Made by a program: the position numbers and the translations under genes. The notes under the pieces are model-generated. The model did no database searches, was not told the DNA's origin, and saw only the letters and a list, made by a program, of their open reading frames with translations. Positions 6,642 through 14,337 of a DNA stretch of 64,000 bases are shown here, piece after piece; within the stretch, counting starts at the first letter, position 1; every line of letters begins with the position of its first letter. The stretch lies in NCBI GenBank assembly GCA_019752535.1, contig JAIEMA010000049.1:1-64000 (forward strand). The letters are read 5' to 3'. Source of the DNA: Bacteriovoracaceae bacterium. GTDB taxonomy: Bacteria; Bdellovibrionota; Bacteriovoracia; Bacteriovoracales; Bacteriovoracaceae.

Positions 6642-8717
6642 ATGGATGGATTATTCGCAAGATTAAAAGTTTTTACCCAAAATTCTGATTTGGCCATCGC
6701 TATTGGCTTGTTAATCATTTTATTGGTGATGGTTGTTCCTGTTCCTCCCTTTGCACTTGATGCATTTTTAGCGCTCTCACTCGCTCTTGCAGTTGTTATT
6801 CTTTTGATGAGTGTTTACGCCAAAAAACCATTGGATTTCTCAACATTTCCATCAGTGCTTCTCGTTACAACATTACTTCGACTCTCTCTTAACGTGGCTT
6901 CAACTCGTAATATTTTGTTGCATGGTAAAGAAGATGGAACTGGAGCCGCTGGAGAAATCATTAAAGCATTTGGTGAGTTCGTGGTGGGTGGTAACTACGC
7001 AGTAGGTATCATCATCTTTACGATCTTGGTGATCATCAATTTTATCGTTATCACTAAAGGTGCTGGTCGAGTCGCAGAAGTCAGTGCTCGATTCACTTTG
7101 GATGCTATGCCAGGAAAGCAGATGGCGATTGATGCTGATTTGAATGCTGGATTGATTGATAACGTCGAAGCCAAACGCAGACGTGCCGAAGTCGCGCAAG
7201 AAGCAGATTTCTACGGTTCGATGGACGGTGCTTCGAAGTTCGTTCGAGGAGAAGCGATTGCGGGTATTCTTATCACTGCAGTCAATATCTTGGGCGGTAT
7301 CATTATTGGTGTAGCTCAAAATGACATGGCGTTTGCAGATGCCACTCGTACATTCACTCTTCTTACTGTGGGTGATGGTCTCATCACTCAAATTCCAGCT
7401 CTTATCATTTCTACGGCCGCTGGTATTATTGCCACTCGCTCAAATACCGAATCTGCCCTAGGTCAACAAGTTGGAAATGAATTCACTATTCATCCAAAAG
7501 CTTTCTACATCACGGGTGGAGTCTTAGCTTTATTTGCGATGATTCCAGGACTTCCGGGTTTACCATTTTTTGGAATTGCCGGTTTGAGTGCCTTCTTTGG
7601 ATTTAGAATTGAGCAGAATAAGAAGCTCGCTGAAACGAATAAAAAGAATGCAGAAGTTAAAGAGCAGAAGTCTCATGCTGAAACTCTTGAAAGTTTACTT
7701 CCTGTTGAACTTGTTCAGCTTGAAGTGGGCTACGGTTTGGTGAGTTTAGTAGACGCTGAACAAAATGGTGATCTGCTTGAACGTATCTCTCACCTTCGTA
7801 AACAGTTTGTCTCTGATTGGGGTCTTATCGTTCCTTCGATTAGAATTAAAGATAACTTAGAGCTCAAGCCGGGTGGTTATTCAATTAAACTTAAAGGCAT
7901 CGAGATCGCTAAGGGCGAATTGATGGCCGATCACTTCTTGGCCATGGATCCTGGAACTGTAATCGGTGAAGTTGATGGCATAGAAACTAAAGAGCCGGTC
8001 TTTGGTCTTCCAGCACTTTGGGTCACAGAAGATTTGCGTGATGATGCTCAATACAATGGCTACACCGTGGTAGATCTTTCAACTGTTGTCGCCACACATT
8101 TAACTGAAGTTCTTAAGGCCAATCTCCACGAGATGCTAGGTCGCCAAGAATTGGTACGCTTGCTGGATAACTTCAAAGAAGAGAATCCAAAAATTGTGGC
8201 CGATCTTATTCCAGAGATCTTACCTTTGGGCTCAGTGCTCAAAGTGATGCAGAATCTTTTACGTGAGAGTGTGTCCGTTAGAGATTTGAGAACTGTTCTT
8301 GAAACACTTGCAGAGTATGGAACAAGTTCGAAAGATCCAGACGCATTGACCGAGTATGTTCGTCAGGCTCTTTATCGTCAGATCACAGAACGCATTAAAG
8401 GCTCTCAGGGCGACATTCCACTCTTCACCCTTGATCGTGCGGTTGAAGAGAGTATAGCTCGCTCAATTGTGAGAAGTGATGGGGGAGATCAACTCTCTCT
8501 CGATCCTAAAATCACACAAGTGATTCTGGCTGGATTGAATGAGAAAATTGAAGAAGCAACCAGTGCGGGTGAGAAAATGGTTGTTCTCTGTTCTCCCGTT
8601 ATTCGCCGCCACTTCAAGAGGTTGACTGAAAAGTTTATTCCCAACCTGATTGTGGTTAGTCATAATGAATTAAGTCCAGAAACTAATATTCGATCTCTCG
8701 GTACCGTAAGGTTGTAA
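6642..8717 (+). CDS. flhA: Flagellar export protein FlhA
   Basis: The largest export-gate subunit, 691 residues. It has eight membrane helices in the first half, with the FHIPEP-family segment RLSLNVASTRNIL and the cytoplasmic loop AIDADLNAGLI. A large cytoplasmic domain from about residue 345 docks chaperone-substrate complexes. The ring of FlhA uses the proton gradient for export. AGAAGGAAG lies upstream of the ATG; flhF follows after four bases. Confidence 0.97.
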   Translation: MDGLFARLKVFTQNSDLAIAIGLLIILLVMVVPVPPFALDAFLALSLALAVVILLMSVYAKKPLDFSTFPSVLLVTTLLRLSLNVASTRNILLHGKEDGTGAAGEIIKAFGEFVVGGNYAVGIIIFTILVIINFIVITKGAGRVAEVSARFTLDAMPGKQMAIDADLNAGLIDNVEAKRRRAEVAQEADFYGSMDGASKFVRGEAIAGILITAVNILGGIIIGVAQNDMAFADATRTFTLLTVGDGLITQIPALIISTAAGIIATRSNTESALGQQVGNEFTIHPKAFYITGGVLALFAMIPGLPGLPFFGIAGLSAFFGFRIEQNKKLAETNKKNAEVKEQKSHAETLESLLPVELVQLEVGYGLVSLVDAEQNGDLLERISHLRKQFVSDWGLIVPSIRIKDNLELKPGGYSIKLKGIEIAKGELMADHFLAMDPGTVIGEVDGIETKEPVFGLPALWVTEDLRDDAQYNGYTVVDLSTVVATHLTEVLKANLHEMLGRQELVRLLDNFKEENPKIVADLIPEILPLGSVLKVMQNLLRESVSVRDLRTVLETLAEYGTSSKDPDALTEYVRQALYRQITERIKGSQGDIPLFTLDRAVEESIARSIVRSDGGDQLSLDPKITQVILAGLNEKIEEATSAGEKMVVLCSPVIRRHFKRLTEKFIPNLIVVSHNELSPETNIRSLGTVRL

Positions 8718-8721
8718 TTCG

Positions 8722-10191
8722 ATGTTTGTGAAGAAGTTCGAGGCAGACACTATTGATGAGGCGCTCAAAGCAGTTAAAGCTGAGTTGGGTCCTGATGCAA
8801 TAATCCTTAAAACGATCACTAATAAAGGTCTTAAAGGGGCTTTTAAAAAAAAGCGAATTGAAATTACAGCGGCTGTTTCCGAGAAAAATATCGAGAAGAA
8901 GGCCAAAGTGGATAAAGTTCTAAATAACGATCAAAAAAAAGATTTTTATTCTCGTGGAGCCAGCTCTCTTAAAGAAGCCATCGACGATTATGATCAAAGT
9001 CCCTCTGCTCCAGCTGGCTACGGCCATATGGGTCTTAACAAAGTAGTAAGTCAAATCTCTAGAAGCAAATCTTCTATCGCCGAAGCGGCGAAGAATACTT
9101 CAAACGCTCTTAAGCAGGGTCTTGATGATTTCCTAGGTGAAGAAGATGCCGTCATGGAAGATGACGCTCGTGATTTTCAGCCACAGACGCGAGTGGCAAA
9201 GCCAAAACCTACGGCTGCAAAAATCAATTTAGAAAATTCCTATAAAGCAGCTGCTACGCCAGCCCCTCAACAAGAAGTGCAAACAATATCTCCAGTCGCC
9301 AAAGAGCTTATTAATGAGCTTCGCCAAGAGATGCGCACTCAACAACATCGCATCGAAATCCTGGAGCAGAAGCTTCACGAAATGGGGCCAGCTGCCATAG
9401 CTGCAGCGAATGCGGATGCTCGTGGAGTTTATCAATTAAGAACAAGTCTCAAGGCCCTTGAGGTGGATGAGTCGATCATTATCGATCTCGTTCGTAAGGC
9501 GGCTTATGAGCTCTCAAAAGAAGAACTAGAGAATCCTGATGTGGTTTTTGAATTTGCTCTTCGTGAAATGACTCAATCAGTGAATGCGGCCCTTCCTCTT
9601 TTCTCGACAGAAGGCGAGGAGCCAGTGGTAACTGTTTTGCTTTCTGAGGCTGCGGCTGGACAGACAAGTATGTCCATGAAGATTGCCGTTTTAAAGAAAG
9701 ATGTAGAGATCGTTCAATTCTCAGCTGAGGGTGGGCATCAAGGCGGGGCAGAGTTTGCCGCTCAGGTATTTGGTCTAAAAGTGCATCGGGCACAGACTCA
9801 AGCCGAGATTATTCAGGCTACTCGTAAGAGTATAGAATCAGGTAAAAGCGTGATCGTTGATCTGCGCTTGGCCAATAGAATGCATGATGAGACTAAGAAA
9901 TTTATTGAGTCTTTACGCCGTGGGTTCCATCACGTGGAAGTGCTTATCACGATTTCTGCAATCCATGCTGAACTTTATAACCGTAAAATTCTTTCCCGTT
10001 ACAAGGAACTGGCCGACGGTCTTATAATATCTCATGTGGACTTGTGTCTCAATTTTGGAGCACTTTATAACGTTCACAGAGCTCACTCCAAGATTCCTTT
10101 AAAGTTTTTTGGGACAGGGCCAGTGGTACCAGACGATGTTGAATCGGCCACTGCAGAAAGAATCATGGCAGGGCTCTTTCAGTTAGGTTAG
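8722..10191 (+). CDS. flhF: FlhF-like protein with degenerate GTPase motifs
   Basis: FlhF is the SRP-type GTPase that marks the pole for flagellar assembly; this one has 489 residues. The N-terminal MFVKKFEADTIDEALKAVKAELGPDAII block and the position between flhA and flhG identify the family. The G domain is unlike any working GTPase: the Walker A site reads SEAAAGQT (308-315, Gln314 where Lys is expected), the DTAGR site reads DLRLA (380-384), and the TKLDE site reads SHVDL (437-441). GTP binding is probably lost, while the fold and the polar-marker role may remain. The frame is intact, so this is not a simple pseudogene. Confidence 0.88.
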   Translation: MFVKKFEADTIDEALKAVKAELGPDAIILKTITNKGLKGAFKKKRIEITAAVSEKNIEKKAKVDKVLNNDQKKDFYSRGASSLKEAIDDYDQSPSAPAGYGHMGLNKVVSQISRSKSSIAEAAKNTSNALKQGLDDFLGEEDAVMEDDARDFQPQTRVAKPKPTAAKINLENSYKAAATPAPQQEVQTISPVAKELINELRQEMRTQQHRIEILEQKLHEMGPAAIAAANADARGVYQLRTSLKALEVDESIIIDLVRKAAYELSKEELENPDVVFEFALREMTQSVNAALPLFSTEGEEPVVTVLLSEAAAGQTSMSMKIAVLKKDVEIVQFSAEGGHQGGAEFAAQVFGLKVHRAQTQAEIIQATRKSIESGKSVIVDLRLANRMHDETKKFIESLRRGFHHVEVLITISAIHAELYNRKILSRYKELADGLIISHVDLCLNFGALYNVHRAHSKIPLKFFGTGPVVPDDVESATAERIMAGLFQLG

Positions 10192-10258: not shown

Positions 10259-11122
10259 ATGCAGAAGACTAGTGATTGGTTGATGTCATTTAGCACACGA
10301 CCACGTTCTAACACACGCCCCGCTCATCCCTTACAAAGAACATCTAGCTGTGTAAAAGTCTCCGTCACTGGTGGCAAGGGTGGTGTTGGTAAAACTTCTG
10401 TGGCCCTTCGCATGGCCCGTGAGCTTGGCGCCTTAGGACACAAAGTTCTTCTCATAGACTGTGATACAAATCTCTCAAACACGGCCATTAAGCTAGGTCT
10501 TCCTCTGGATGACATGTTTTGGAAGCTTCTCTCTGCTGAGAAAGAATTCAGCGAATGTGTAGTCAGAAGAGATGGCTATGATTTGCTTCCAGCTTGTAAC
10601 GGCAGCATCGATCTTTTTGAAAGCCGCCTTGCACTCGACGAAGTCATCATCGATATTGTGAGCTCTCATGAAGAGGAATACGATTGGATTCTTCTTGATT
10701 GCCCTGCAGGTCTTGATAGAGCAAGTCTTACGCTCAATGCTTGGTGTGACCACCGCGTGATCGTAGTGACTCCAGATAAAAGCTCAATCACAGACTCTTA
10801 CTCACTCGTAAAAATCCTTCAGACTCGTTATGGAATCAAAGAAAATCATCTTTTGGTGAACATGATTCAAAACGATCGTCAGTTTCAAAAGGTTGTTATG
10901 ACCTTGAGTGAAACAATTGAGAATTTCCTCGGATGCCGTACAAATGTGCTCGGTGGAATTCGCAAAGTGGATGTTTCTGCCGAGTCATTTGATACTTTTT
11001 TCCTCTCTGAACAAGGTTCGGAGTGGCATAAGAATTTTTTAAAGATCGTTCAACAGTTCGCCGAAAAATGGGGTGCCGGAAATGTTTCACGACGTCCGGC
11101 TTTGGAACAAGAAGTCCATTAA
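10259..11122 (+). CDS. flhG: FlhG (YlxH/FleN) MinD-like ATPase controlling flagellar number
   Basis: A ParA/MinD-family ATPase of 287 residues that limits flagellar number. The deviant Walker A motif GGKGGVGKTS lies at about residues 38-47, followed by LLIDCDTN and the switch II-like DWILLDCPAGLD. A perfect AGGAGG precedes the ATG. The N-terminal 30 residues are Ser/Thr/Arg-rich and lack the DQAxxLR motif with which FlhG normally activates FlhF. That fits the degenerate FlhF encoded just upstream. Confidence 0.93.
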   Translation: MQKTSDWLMSFSTRPRSNTRPAHPLQRTSSCVKVSVTGGKGGVGKTSVALRMARELGALGHKVLLIDCDTNLSNTAIKLGLPLDDMFWKLLSAEKEFSECVVRRDGYDLLPACNGSIDLFESRLALDEVIIDIVSSHEEEYDWILLDCPAGLDRASLTLNAWCDHRVIVVTPDKSSITDSYSLVKILQTRYGIKENHLLVNMIQNDRQFQKVVMTLSETIENFLGCRTNVLGGIRKVDVSAESFDTFFLSEQGSEWHKNFLKIVQQFAEKWGAGNVSRRPALEQEVH

Positions 11123-11147: not shown

Positions 11148-11936
11148 ATGTCGTCACTGACGAGCAAATTGAAGAACCTCAAAGATTACCGTAGCACTGT
11201 TGAGCCGAAGGTGAAGGACGAGATCATTCTCGAGTACGCACCATTGGTTAAATATATTGCTCAAAAAATCGCTTCTCGCTTGCCTTCAAACATCGAGCTA
11301 GATGATTTGATGTCTTGTGGTGTGATTGGGCTCATGGACGCGATCGAAAAGTTCGATCCAAGCCGTGATAATAAATTTAAAACTTATGCTGAATTCCGAA
11401 TCCGTGGCGCTATTCTCGATGAGCTCCGCTCACAGGATTGGGTTCCACGTTCAGTTCGTGAGAAAGCGAAGCAAGTCGAGCGCGCATACGCGAAGCTTGA
11501 TAAAGAACTTGGTCGTCCAGCGACTGATGAAGAAATGTGTGTTGAACTTCAATGCAATATGGATGAGTTTCATGATTTGATCAATAAATCAAAGTCAGTT
11601 TCTCTCTTAAACATTGATGACACGGCTTCAATGGGTCGTGGAGACAAGAAGTTAATGTCGAATTTAATGGAAAATAGCCGCTCAGCGAATCCATTTTCGG
11701 CCGTTAACTACAAGCGCTCACAAGATTTAATCAAAGAAGGCATTAAGACTCTTCCCGAGAAGCAACGTCTCGTGTTGTCACTTTACTACTTTGAAGACTT
11801 GAACCTAAAGGAAATTGGTCAGGTTCTAGATGTCACTGAGTCTCGAGTGTCTCAACTTCACACTCAAGCCATCTTGAAACTTAAGGCCCGTCTTCGTACG
11901 CAGTTCGATAGTCACGAAGATTTAGCGGCTAGCTAA
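11148..11936 (+). CDS. fliA: Flagellar RNA polymerase sigma factor FliA (sigma-28)
   Basis: A sigma-70-family factor of 262 residues. Region 2 (LVKYIAQKIASRLP, DLMSCGVIGLMDAIEKFDP, TYAEFRIRGAILDELR) leads into the FliA-typical DWVPRSVREKAK, then region 3. The region 4 helix-turn-helix is LKEIGQVLDVTESRVSQLH. It directs late flagellar genes. It is the last gene of the flagellar unit and is followed by a terminator. No anti-sigma factor FlgM is seen nearby. Confidence 0.95.
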   Translation: MSSLTSKLKNLKDYRSTVEPKVKDEIILEYAPLVKYIAQKIASRLPSNIELDDLMSCGVIGLMDAIEKFDPSRDNKFKTYAEFRIRGAILDELRSQDWVPRSVREKAKQVERAYAKLDKELGRPATDEEMCVELQCNMDEFHDLINKSKSVSLLNIDDTASMGRGDKKLMSNLMENSRSANPFSAVNYKRSQDLIKEGIKTLPEKQRLVLSLYYFEDLNLKEIGQVLDVTESRVSQLHTQAILKLKARLRTQFDSHEDLAAS

Positions 11937-12039: not shown

Positions 12040-14337
12040 ATGGAAGCGCGTTCAATGAAAGTGACTCAAATGGCGACTCATCTGCTGCTAGCGACTTCGA
12101 TTGCTGGTCTCATGTTTGTTGGCTGGGAGCTGTCTGAATCCATTAAACAAAAAGATCAGTTGGTAGAAACTCAAAGTAAGGCAAGATCGAGGATTGAGCA
12201 ACTCAAAGAGAAGAATCCTTTTGTCGCAATCGATAAATCTCTCAGTAAGGTTCAAACAACAGAAGCTCTTGATCGACTCTCAAAGCTTGATCAAAACATC
12301 TCTCAACTTGAAAAACAACTTGATATCAAACGCAGTGAAGAGATCACAAACATTTTCATTAAATTCAAAAATGCCATTCAAGACTCAAAAAATTTATCTC
12401 GTCCAGATGAACTACTTTCTACCATTAGCGACAAAGTCGATCATCTTATTGGCCTCGCAAAAACTCGTAAATGGCAAAATATTGCACGCATCAGTTCAAG
12501 AATTGAGTCTCGCTTGGTTCAACTCAGATCAAGCCAGAAAGTGGAGTCTCCATTAGTCAAATACATGGAGAGTGATCTTCTTGGTCTCACTCAACTCGTA
12601 AAAACTTCAACATTGGATGAATCGGACAAGGGCTCACTTTTAAATCAATTAGAGGGGATTCGCCAAGAACTCTCAATGTTACTTGATCTCCACCAAAGTC
12701 GCAGAGGTTCTGGTGAGCATCTCCAGAATGCTCAAGAGGCGCTAGGACACTGGATTGCGAAAGCAGAGCTTGCAATAGGCACTCTTGATTTTAGAGCGCA
12801 ATCAAAAGTGGATACTTCAATTAATCATTTCTGGATTCTTACTTCATTTCTTTTTGTGGGATGGATTCTTGTAGGCATGTTGTGGACGATGGCGCGTCGA
12901 TCACAAAAGCATTTGAATGATCAAAATATTATTGAGCTTCTCACTCTAAGCGTCTTAGGTGAGAGTCCGTCATGGAAGAAATTTGTCGGAAGCTCGAGAA
13001 TTGATGAAGTCAGCCGAACGCTGAATGTAATCAAAAAAAGAATGAGTCTTGGAGAGAATTTTCAAGAAGCGATGCCGTTTGGATCTCTTCTGGTTGATGA
13101 TAAATCCAATCTTATTTGGGGCAATGAGCTCTTCTGTGAGCAATTTTCGATAGAGGCTCAAGACCTTGAAGATGAGTTTATTAATTGGACTCAAATCAAG
13201 AGCAGAATTTCGGGTGTGGATATTGATCCTATAGAGTTTGCCATCTCAGAGATGCAACCCGGAACCTGGCAGATTCAACTTCAAATGGAAGATGGTGTTT
13301 CTATTCCACTCGAAATGCATGTCACACCAATAGAACACAAAGCCTCTCGTAAAGTTCTTGTCATTTTCTACCCACTGGCGATGATGAAAGAAACGATTCA
13401 AACTCAAGCTCGTATTATAATGGAACCTGTTCGTCTTGCTTTAGATGCTTTAGAGAAAGAAGATTGGGGCTTAGAGGTAGAGGAGCGACTTGCTCCACAG
13501 TGGAGACAGGTGGGGCTTGGGGAAGATTGGGAGAAGCTGAGCCGTTCTATCTACAGAATGAATCAGGCGAGAAATGATTTATTCAATCATATGACTCAAA
13601 TTGAAAATGAGAACCACGATTATCTGAAAACAATTAAGGATCTCTCAGTCGGTGTTGAAGAGAGAATCTCTGGTTTAAAAAATCAAATGAGTTCTTTAAA
13701 AGAGATGAGAGATTGTCTCGTTTCAATTGACCAGCTCAATAATGATTTAGTGCTTGAACACTCTTCGCTGGTCACTGAAGCAAGAACTTTTGTTAAAAAA
13801 CATGACTATCTCGTTGAAGCCTCAAGGTCTCTGGGTGAGAGACTAACTCAGGCCAAAGAAGCTGCAAGCGCGATAGAAAAATGCAAGCAAGAGTATAAAG
13901 AGGGCAAGCTAGAAATCCAGCTGACTAAGCAGTTAATGGTGACACTCCATAATAAATTTTTAAACACTATCCCTGATATGAGCGAGAAAGCGGAAGTCAT
14001 TGCTTCGGAAATGAAAGAAGCACTCATGCGCTTGGATCGTGCGACTCAAAGTCTAGAGACAAGACTCTCAAGCTTGGATATTCAAATCACAAAACTTGCT
14101 ATGAATTTTGCGGGTCCTATTCCAGATATCGAAAAAGTGACGGGCGCCCTAGATTTAAATGTTCATGAAAGAGTGGCCAGAGAGATCCAGGTGGCGATTC
14201 AAGAAGATCAAGACCTTGTGATTCAGCACTTGAAAAAAATTGTGGATGACTTGAAACAAGATTCTCAAGCCATGGGGGATTTAATCAAGTCGACCCACGA
14301 GATCTCAGTTGATCCATCATCAGCTTCGATTGGATGA
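12040..14337 (+). CDS. Two-TM membrane protein with PAS-like and long coiled-coil regions
   Basis: Not a named family that I recognise; 765 residues. Membrane helices at about 13-32 and 263-284 enclose a helical extracytoplasmic domain. A PAS-like domain follows at about 345-450 (FGSLLVDDKSNLIWGNELF...), and the last 250 residues are heptad-rich coiled coil. Topology resembles chemoreceptors, but the conserved MCP hairpin tip is absent, and there are no kinase or GGDEF motifs. It lies directly after fliA behind a terminator. Its final bases overlap the next ATG, so the two are co-translated. Confidence 0.8.
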   Translation: MEARSMKVTQMATHLLLATSIAGLMFVGWELSESIKQKDQLVETQSKARSRIEQLKEKNPFVAIDKSLSKVQTTEALDRLSKLDQNISQLEKQLDIKRSEEITNIFIKFKNAIQDSKNLSRPDELLSTISDKVDHLIGLAKTRKWQNIARISSRIESRLVQLRSSQKVESPLVKYMESDLLGLTQLVKTSTLDESDKGSLLNQLEGIRQELSMLLDLHQSRRGSGEHLQNAQEALGHWIAKAELAIGTLDFRAQSKVDTSINHFWILTSFLFVGWILVGMLWTMARRSQKHLNDQNIIELLTLSVLGESPSWKKFVGSSRIDEVSRTLNVIKKRMSLGENFQEAMPFGSLLVDDKSNLIWGNELFCEQFSIEAQDLEDEFINWTQIKSRISGVDIDPIEFAISEMQPGTWQIQLQMEDGVSIPLEMHVTPIEHKASRKVLVIFYPLAMMKETIQTQARIIMEPVRLALDALEKEDWGLEVEERLAPQWRQVGLGEDWEKLSRSIYRMNQARNDLFNHMTQIENENHDYLKTIKDLSVGVEERISGLKNQMSSLKEMRDCLVSIDQLNNDLVLEHSSLVTEARTFVKKHDYLVEASRSLGERLTQAKEAASAIEKCKQEYKEGKLEIQLTKQLMVTLHNKFLNTIPDMSEKAEVIASEMKEALMRLDRATQSLETRLSSLDIQITKLAMNFAGPIPDIEKVTGALDLNVHERVAREIQVAIQEDQDLVIQHLKKIVDDLKQDSQAMGDLIKSTHEISVDPSSASIG

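Follow-up and report, generated by a model that had tools for sequence, protein, structure and literature searches.

The window, by which we mean the whole 64,000-nucleotide stretch of Bacteriovoracaceae DNA that was analysed (positions 1 to 64,000 of contig JAIEMA010000049.1), carries flhA, flhF, flhG and fliA one after another on the forward strand. This order is constant among the relatives, with flhA upstream of flhF at 78 of 78 loci showing that side, flhG downstream at 77 of 77 and then fliA at 73 of 73. The flhF reading frame starts with ATG and runs through 489 codons with no internal stop, so that the intact frame described in an initial annotation of this DNA is borne out. The features considered here are as follows.

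6642 to 8717, forward strand: flhA, directly upstream of flhF (PF00771, E 2.9e-274)
8722 to 10191, forward strand: flhF, putative pseudo-GTPase FlhF of 489 aa (ORF, TIGR03499, hhalign, Foldseek)
8722 to 8916, forward strand: strongly conserved B-domain (residues 1-65), which includes the FliG-interacting region (many invariant columns; match to 9en1)
9643 to 9666, forward strand: degenerate P-loop (G1) SEAAAGQT, residues 308-315, with the P-loop Lys replaced by Gln (family census)
9859 to 9873, forward strand: degenerate G3 DLRLA, residues 380-384, with Asp alone kept and the Gly of DTAG lost (census)
9958 to 9981, forward strand: family-specific motif AIHAELYN, residues 413-420 (family alignment)
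10030 to 10044, forward strand: degenerate G4 SHVDL, residues 437-441, with Asp kept and Lys lost (census)
10259 to 11122, forward strand: flhG, MinD-like ATPase with intact Walker A, carrying SDWL/SEWL and an invariant Trp7 in place of the N-terminal DQAxxLR helix (Foldseek top matches FleN and FlhG)
11148 to 11936, forward strand: fliA, sigma-28 type (sigma-70 regions 2-4)

A long membrane protein is encoded after fliA at window positions 12040-14337, and one also follows fliA in the apparently aflagellate genus g32 described below (L238:11148-13070, for which there was no convincing Pfam match). Scattered over the window's genome (G000) are eight PF00669 (flagellin-type) matches, of which one is weak and may be a hook-associated protein. 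Besides full-length FliG, this genome has several ORFs that match the C-terminal domain of FliG, most of them of about 140-150 aa and some longer.

G000, C16:17893-18210, C45:12357-12665 and C53:6889-7194: FliG C-terminal-domain ORFs, with similar ones in G006 and other relatives

By descent the 489-codon ORF is orthologous to FlhF, as had been proposed from its position and N-terminus; gene order, B-domain, profile homology and NG fold all agree on this. Aligned with hhalign against 13 FlhFs belonging to other families of Bdellovibrionota, the profile of the window's family matched from first to last residue (453 columns, E 1.3e-42). The NCBIfam FlhF model TIGR03499 matched residues 1-266 of the window protein (E 4.4e-14) at 53.1 bits, well below the curated equivalog cut-off of 174.15, and matched 78 of 78 family members at E 0.001 or better. 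In a PDB profile search, Bacillus subtilis FlhF (2px0) ranked first (E 7e-7), and residues 3-57 of the family profile matched a solved 53-aa FlhF chain, 9en1 (E 0.003); matches to haemagglutinin chains covered the linker and coiled-coil region and were discounted as noise. For the window FlhF, AF2 gave a confident model of the N-terminal domain and of most of the NG domain (pLDDT > 90 across most of the G domain). The best Foldseek match of this model in the PDB was the GDP-bound Shewanella putrefaciens FlhF, 8r9r (E 7.9e-12, TM 0.71 by target length), with structures of SRP54 and FtsY ranking next. The protein is thus predicted from the model to have the NG fold of the SRP GTPases.

Within this fold, SEAAAGQT, DLRLA and SHVDL align with the G1, G3 and G4 motifs of other FlhFs. 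To define how far this state extends, a census of the P-loop was taken across the phylum Bdellovibrionota, comprising 97 distinct Bacteriovoracaceae FlhFs (from 123 family proteins) and a comparison set of 90 FlhFs from other families; those relatives that carry names belong to Bacteriovoracaceae/Halobacteriovoraceae, among them Halobacteriovorax marinus and isolates of Bacteriovorax. Ser308, at the position of the first P-loop Gly, and Gln314, at that of the P-loop Lys, are invariant in 97 of 97 family proteins, whereas all 90 FlhFs of the other families have GxxxxGK[ST] with Gly and Lys at both positions. The G2 box (DTxRxAAxEQ) is replaced in the family by a loop variable in both length and sequence, and at G4 the Asp and mostly the Ser/Thr are kept but the Lys of TKxD (position 438) is present in only two of the 97. 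No GxxxxGK[ST] was found anywhere in the window FlhF or its relatives (0/123 family proteins), which rules out an intact P-loop displaced to another part of the protein, one of the two cases that the initial annotation had named as its own refutation. Nor was an intact FlhF-like GTPase paralogue found among the SRP54 matches, the additional ones being consistent with Ffh and FtsY, with P-loop fragments of roughly 35 aa from other ATPases, or with the C-terminal half of FlhF itself.

Not all of the site has gone. Asp380 of G3 is kept in 96 of the 97 distinct proteins, Asp440 of G4 in all 97, Gly313 of the P-loop in 96 and Thr/Ser315 in 94, and these FlhFs likewise retain Lys320 of the SRP family (97/97) and, at the C-terminus, the GTGxxVPxDIExA segment. 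The family also has a motif of its own, AIHAELYN, in which I414, E417, Y419 and N420 are invariant among 78 aligned members. The initial reading that all GTPase motifs were lost therefore holds for the P-loop Lys and first Gly, the G2 box, the G3 Gly and the G4 Lys, but not for the G3 and G4 Asp or the P-loop Thr/Ser; DLRLA and SHVDL, quoted as lost sites, were read correctly, but each retains its Asp.

As most of the genomes are metagenome bins and Pfam SRP54 finds no match in the window protein, one might ask whether a sequencing, assembly or alignment artefact, or a misidentified gene, lies behind these observations. This explanation is refuted by the recurrence of the same state in 97 distinct proteins, by the degenerate P-loop in the genomes of the isolates Bacteriovorax BSW11_IV (L104) and DB6_IX (L123), by the full-length profile alignment to other FlhFs, and by SRP54 itself, which matches 45 of the 78 relatives with E values of at most 0.01.

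In a tree built without the motif columns, the family FlhFs formed one clade (support 100) on a stem 2.76 changes per column in length and, since the family is monophyletic, a single loss suffices. Because all 119 genomes of the class with an FlhF match belong to this one family, the loss is not datable further within the class. On the sequences compared, the loss of the P-loop maps to one branch before the family diversified and appears as an ancient and fixed state. Alignment with a Bdellovibrio FlhF, proposed in the initial annotation, gave the opposite state. The protein in question, which we take to be that of B. bacteriovorus HD100, reads GPAGSGKT at the P-loop, DTFKVGAADQ at G2, DYTG at G3 and TSLDES at G4. 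L193 and the other FlhFs of family f6, likely Bdellovibrionaceae, have an intact P-loop and have lost the G4 Lys (TSLDES), and their FlhG is without DQAxxLR; this may be an intermediate state in the predator that has been studied most. Our literature search found no paper on FlhF of Bdellovibrio or Bacteriovorax, or on a degenerate FlhF.

The family flhF is under strong purifying selection, in agreement with the earlier view that selection has kept the protein. Across 21 distinct pairs the dN/dS (omega) of the NG domain ranged from 0.006 to 0.084 (median 0.041), and the frames are open in nearly all of the 119 genomes. Both the TCN and the AGY type of serine codon are used at position 308, and both CAA and CAG at position 314, with neither Ser308 nor Gln314 ever changed; given this and the low omega, the replacement loop is being maintained and is not decaying. 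It is therefore highly improbable that FlhF is vestigial in the family, with placement moved to some other polar factor and the G domain merely decaying, as the long stem branch might suggest: that explanation is contradicted by the selection data, together with the invariant new motifs, the open frames and the fixed synteny.

A more serious alternative is that the protein is dead in hydrolysis but still binds GTP, GDP or another nucleotide through the S[DE]xxxGQ[ST] loop, Asp380 and Asp440, either to stabilise a dimer or as a sensor. The near-universal retention of both Asp residues, Gly313 and Thr/Ser315 speaks for this, as does the invariance of the replacement Gln, which marks a loop conserved in a new form. 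However, the Lys that holds the phosphate, the first P-loop Gly and the G4 Lys are lost, the G2 box has become a loop of changing length, and a conserved Asp can be structural, and we regard nucleotide binding of this kind as unlikely. Mutants of Vibrio alginolyticus FlhF offer a comparison: flagella are lost completely with T306A and D439A but merely reduced with G299A, K305A and K437A (PMC6092412), and by alignment the family keeps the equivalents of T306 and D439 and loses those of G299, K305 and K437. Retention of the former pair may reflect structural roles or some residual nucleotide binding. From the motifs, we infer that family FlhFs would not hydrolyse GTP and most likely would not bind it in the canonical manner.

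The partner ATPase, FlhG, appears intact, its Walker A motif (GKGGVGKT) being invariant in the family and its structural model matching FleN/FlhG. The Gln of the N-terminal DQAxxLR helix of FlhG stimulates the FlhF GTPase (PMC12826062), and this helix was found in none of 114 family FlhGs; in its place is a stretch resembling SEWL, with a Trp that does not vary among 46 aligned members. The helix is also missing from 58 of 70 outgroup FlhGs whose FlhFs retain the P-loop, and since it is lacking in many such sister families its loss was earlier than, or independent of, that of the P-loop. To read it as specific co-evolution with a dead FlhF would consequently be an overclaim; the state of FlhG is consistent with, and not proof of, a dead FlhF. 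Among the outgroups all 12 with DQAxxLR have the G4 Lys, versus 8 of the 58 without this helix, although the tree reduces these counts to two independent contrasts. BcsE/BcsQ was considered as a precedent for such a partnership and rejected, as it concerns a degenerate receiver-GGDEF and not an SRP GTPase.

Cultured members of this family of predatory bacteria bear a single polar flagellum, as described for Bacteriovorax stolpii and starrii (PMC7175336), H. marinus BE01 (PMC5760749) and new Halobacteriovorax isolates (PMC12724312). On the sequence evidence, these observations are best read as a pseudo-GTPase at the flagellar pole. We put at roughly two in three the probability that Bacteriovoracaceae FlhF is a pseudo-GTPase that arose once, before the family diversified, and that works as a scaffold independent of nucleotide or at least of hydrolysis. 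The role of the family protein in positioning the flagellum is assumed in this prediction, under which placement in Bacteriovoracaceae probably runs without the usual GTP switch. At the pole, the conserved B-domain would still engage FliG/FliF, and the NG domain, hydrolysis-dead and probably nucleotide-free, would serve as a constitutive interaction module (a dimer or a dock for a partner) replacing the GTP-timed dimer. Control of flagellar number would be left to the intact FlhG ATPase, still cycling with ATP, in which a helix with an invariant Trp would stand where the GTPase-stimulating helix has gone. By analogy, a hydrolysis-free FlhF is mechanistically plausible, as V. alginolyticus FlhF R334A indicates that GTP hydrolysis is dispensable for placement (PMC6092412). 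The original suggestion, that the protein is kept for a function not requiring GTP and that a pseudo-GTPase places the polar flagellum, is upheld as to its being an FlhF with a lost signature, under selection, in a group whose cultured members have a single polar flagellum; its exclusion of GTP is less secure, as binding is possible via the kept Asp and Thr/Ser.

The distribution of flhF bears on whether its role is confined to the flagellum. Ten genomes of the class are without FlhF, several of them incomplete and some retaining flagellin or FliG; FlhA is also absent from nine and is cut short in the tenth (G083), and flhF therefore otherwise tracks the flagellar export gene, genus g32 excepted. 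In three g32 genomes (94-99% complete) FlhA, FliG, FliM/N, flagellin and the rod proteins are all absent, and yet each encodes a pseudo-FlhF bearing the same loop, with FliA next to it downstream, and elsewhere an FlrC-like activator followed by a FliF-like protein. In the window's genome the rod genes, fliF and fliG follow the same activator.

L238:9044-10171, L239:9441-10481 and L240:10236-9109: g32 pseudo-FlhF
L241:5035-6324, L242:918-2411 and L243:4645-6135: g32 FliF-like protein, diverged

This retention suggests a role beyond the flagellum. We tentatively consider it possible that family FlhF is a nucleotide-independent, constitutive polar scaffold forming with FliF a module separable from the flagellum, which survives in g32 with a FliF-like ring protein. 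Somewhat less probable is that the pseudo-FlhF is primarily a general organiser of the cell pole, with flagellar placement as one output and the loss of the GTP cycle reflecting the second role, a proposal compatible with the preferred reading. The persistence in g32 of pseudo-FlhF, FliF-like, FlrC-like and FliA proteins without FlhA, FliG, FliM/N, flagellin and rod proteins favours it, as does an omega of 0.053 between two g32 genomes. However, a single genus is involved, in which both genes could have been repurposed or be slowly decaying (omega 0.19-0.23 in the more distant pairs, where dS is near saturation), and the match to FliF is a weak one (E 1e-7 to 6e-5).

Whether polar placement needs the GTP cycle of FlhF is debated, the case resting on point mutants with phenotypes that vary from one species to another. 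With the pseudo-GTPase reading, Bacteriovoracaceae would be a natural experiment in which FlhF has been retained without its GTPase site and cultured members have a single polar flagellum, so that the view that the GTP cycle is essential for placement becomes directly testable in a natural system. The phylum as a whole offers a series of natural losses, from a full FlhF with a DQAxxLR FlhG, through P-loop FlhFs often without the G4 Lys or DQAxxLR, to the full pseudo-GTPase, and also an apparently aflagellate genus that keeps FlhF and a FliF-like protein.

By motif, FlhF of Bacteriovoracaceae would fall outside the SRP-type GTPase class, as it has none of the P-loop, G2, G3 and G4 signatures; what defines a pseudo-GTPase, a G fold with its G motifs lost in a conserved protein, is what we find. 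With the SRP-type FlhFs of B. subtilis (2px0/3syn), S. putrefaciens (8r9r) and V. alginolyticus it has in common the gene order, the B-domain, the fold of the N and G domains and GTGxxVPxDIExA; it differs from them in lacking the G1 Lys and first Gly, the G2 box, the G3 Gly and the G4 Lys, in its new invariant P-loop Gln and Ser, and in a FlhG without DQAxxLR. The FlhFs of Bdellovibrionaceae and other Bdellovibrionota share the linkage to flhG, and there too FlhG is often without DQAxxLR and the G4 Lys often lost, but they keep GxxxxGK[ST] without exception and the G2 box in most. The V. alginolyticus R334A protein resembles the family in hydrolysis-free placement, which is inferred here, but is a laboratory mutant with an intact P-loop and not a natural loss (PMC6092412). 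Eukaryotic pseudo-GTPases, such as the p190RhoGAP domains and some septins, likewise combine a G fold with lost G motifs and are kept for protein contacts (PMC5593906, PMC10731463); they belong to another group of G proteins and not to the SRP type, whereas the protein described here is a putative bacterial placement factor.
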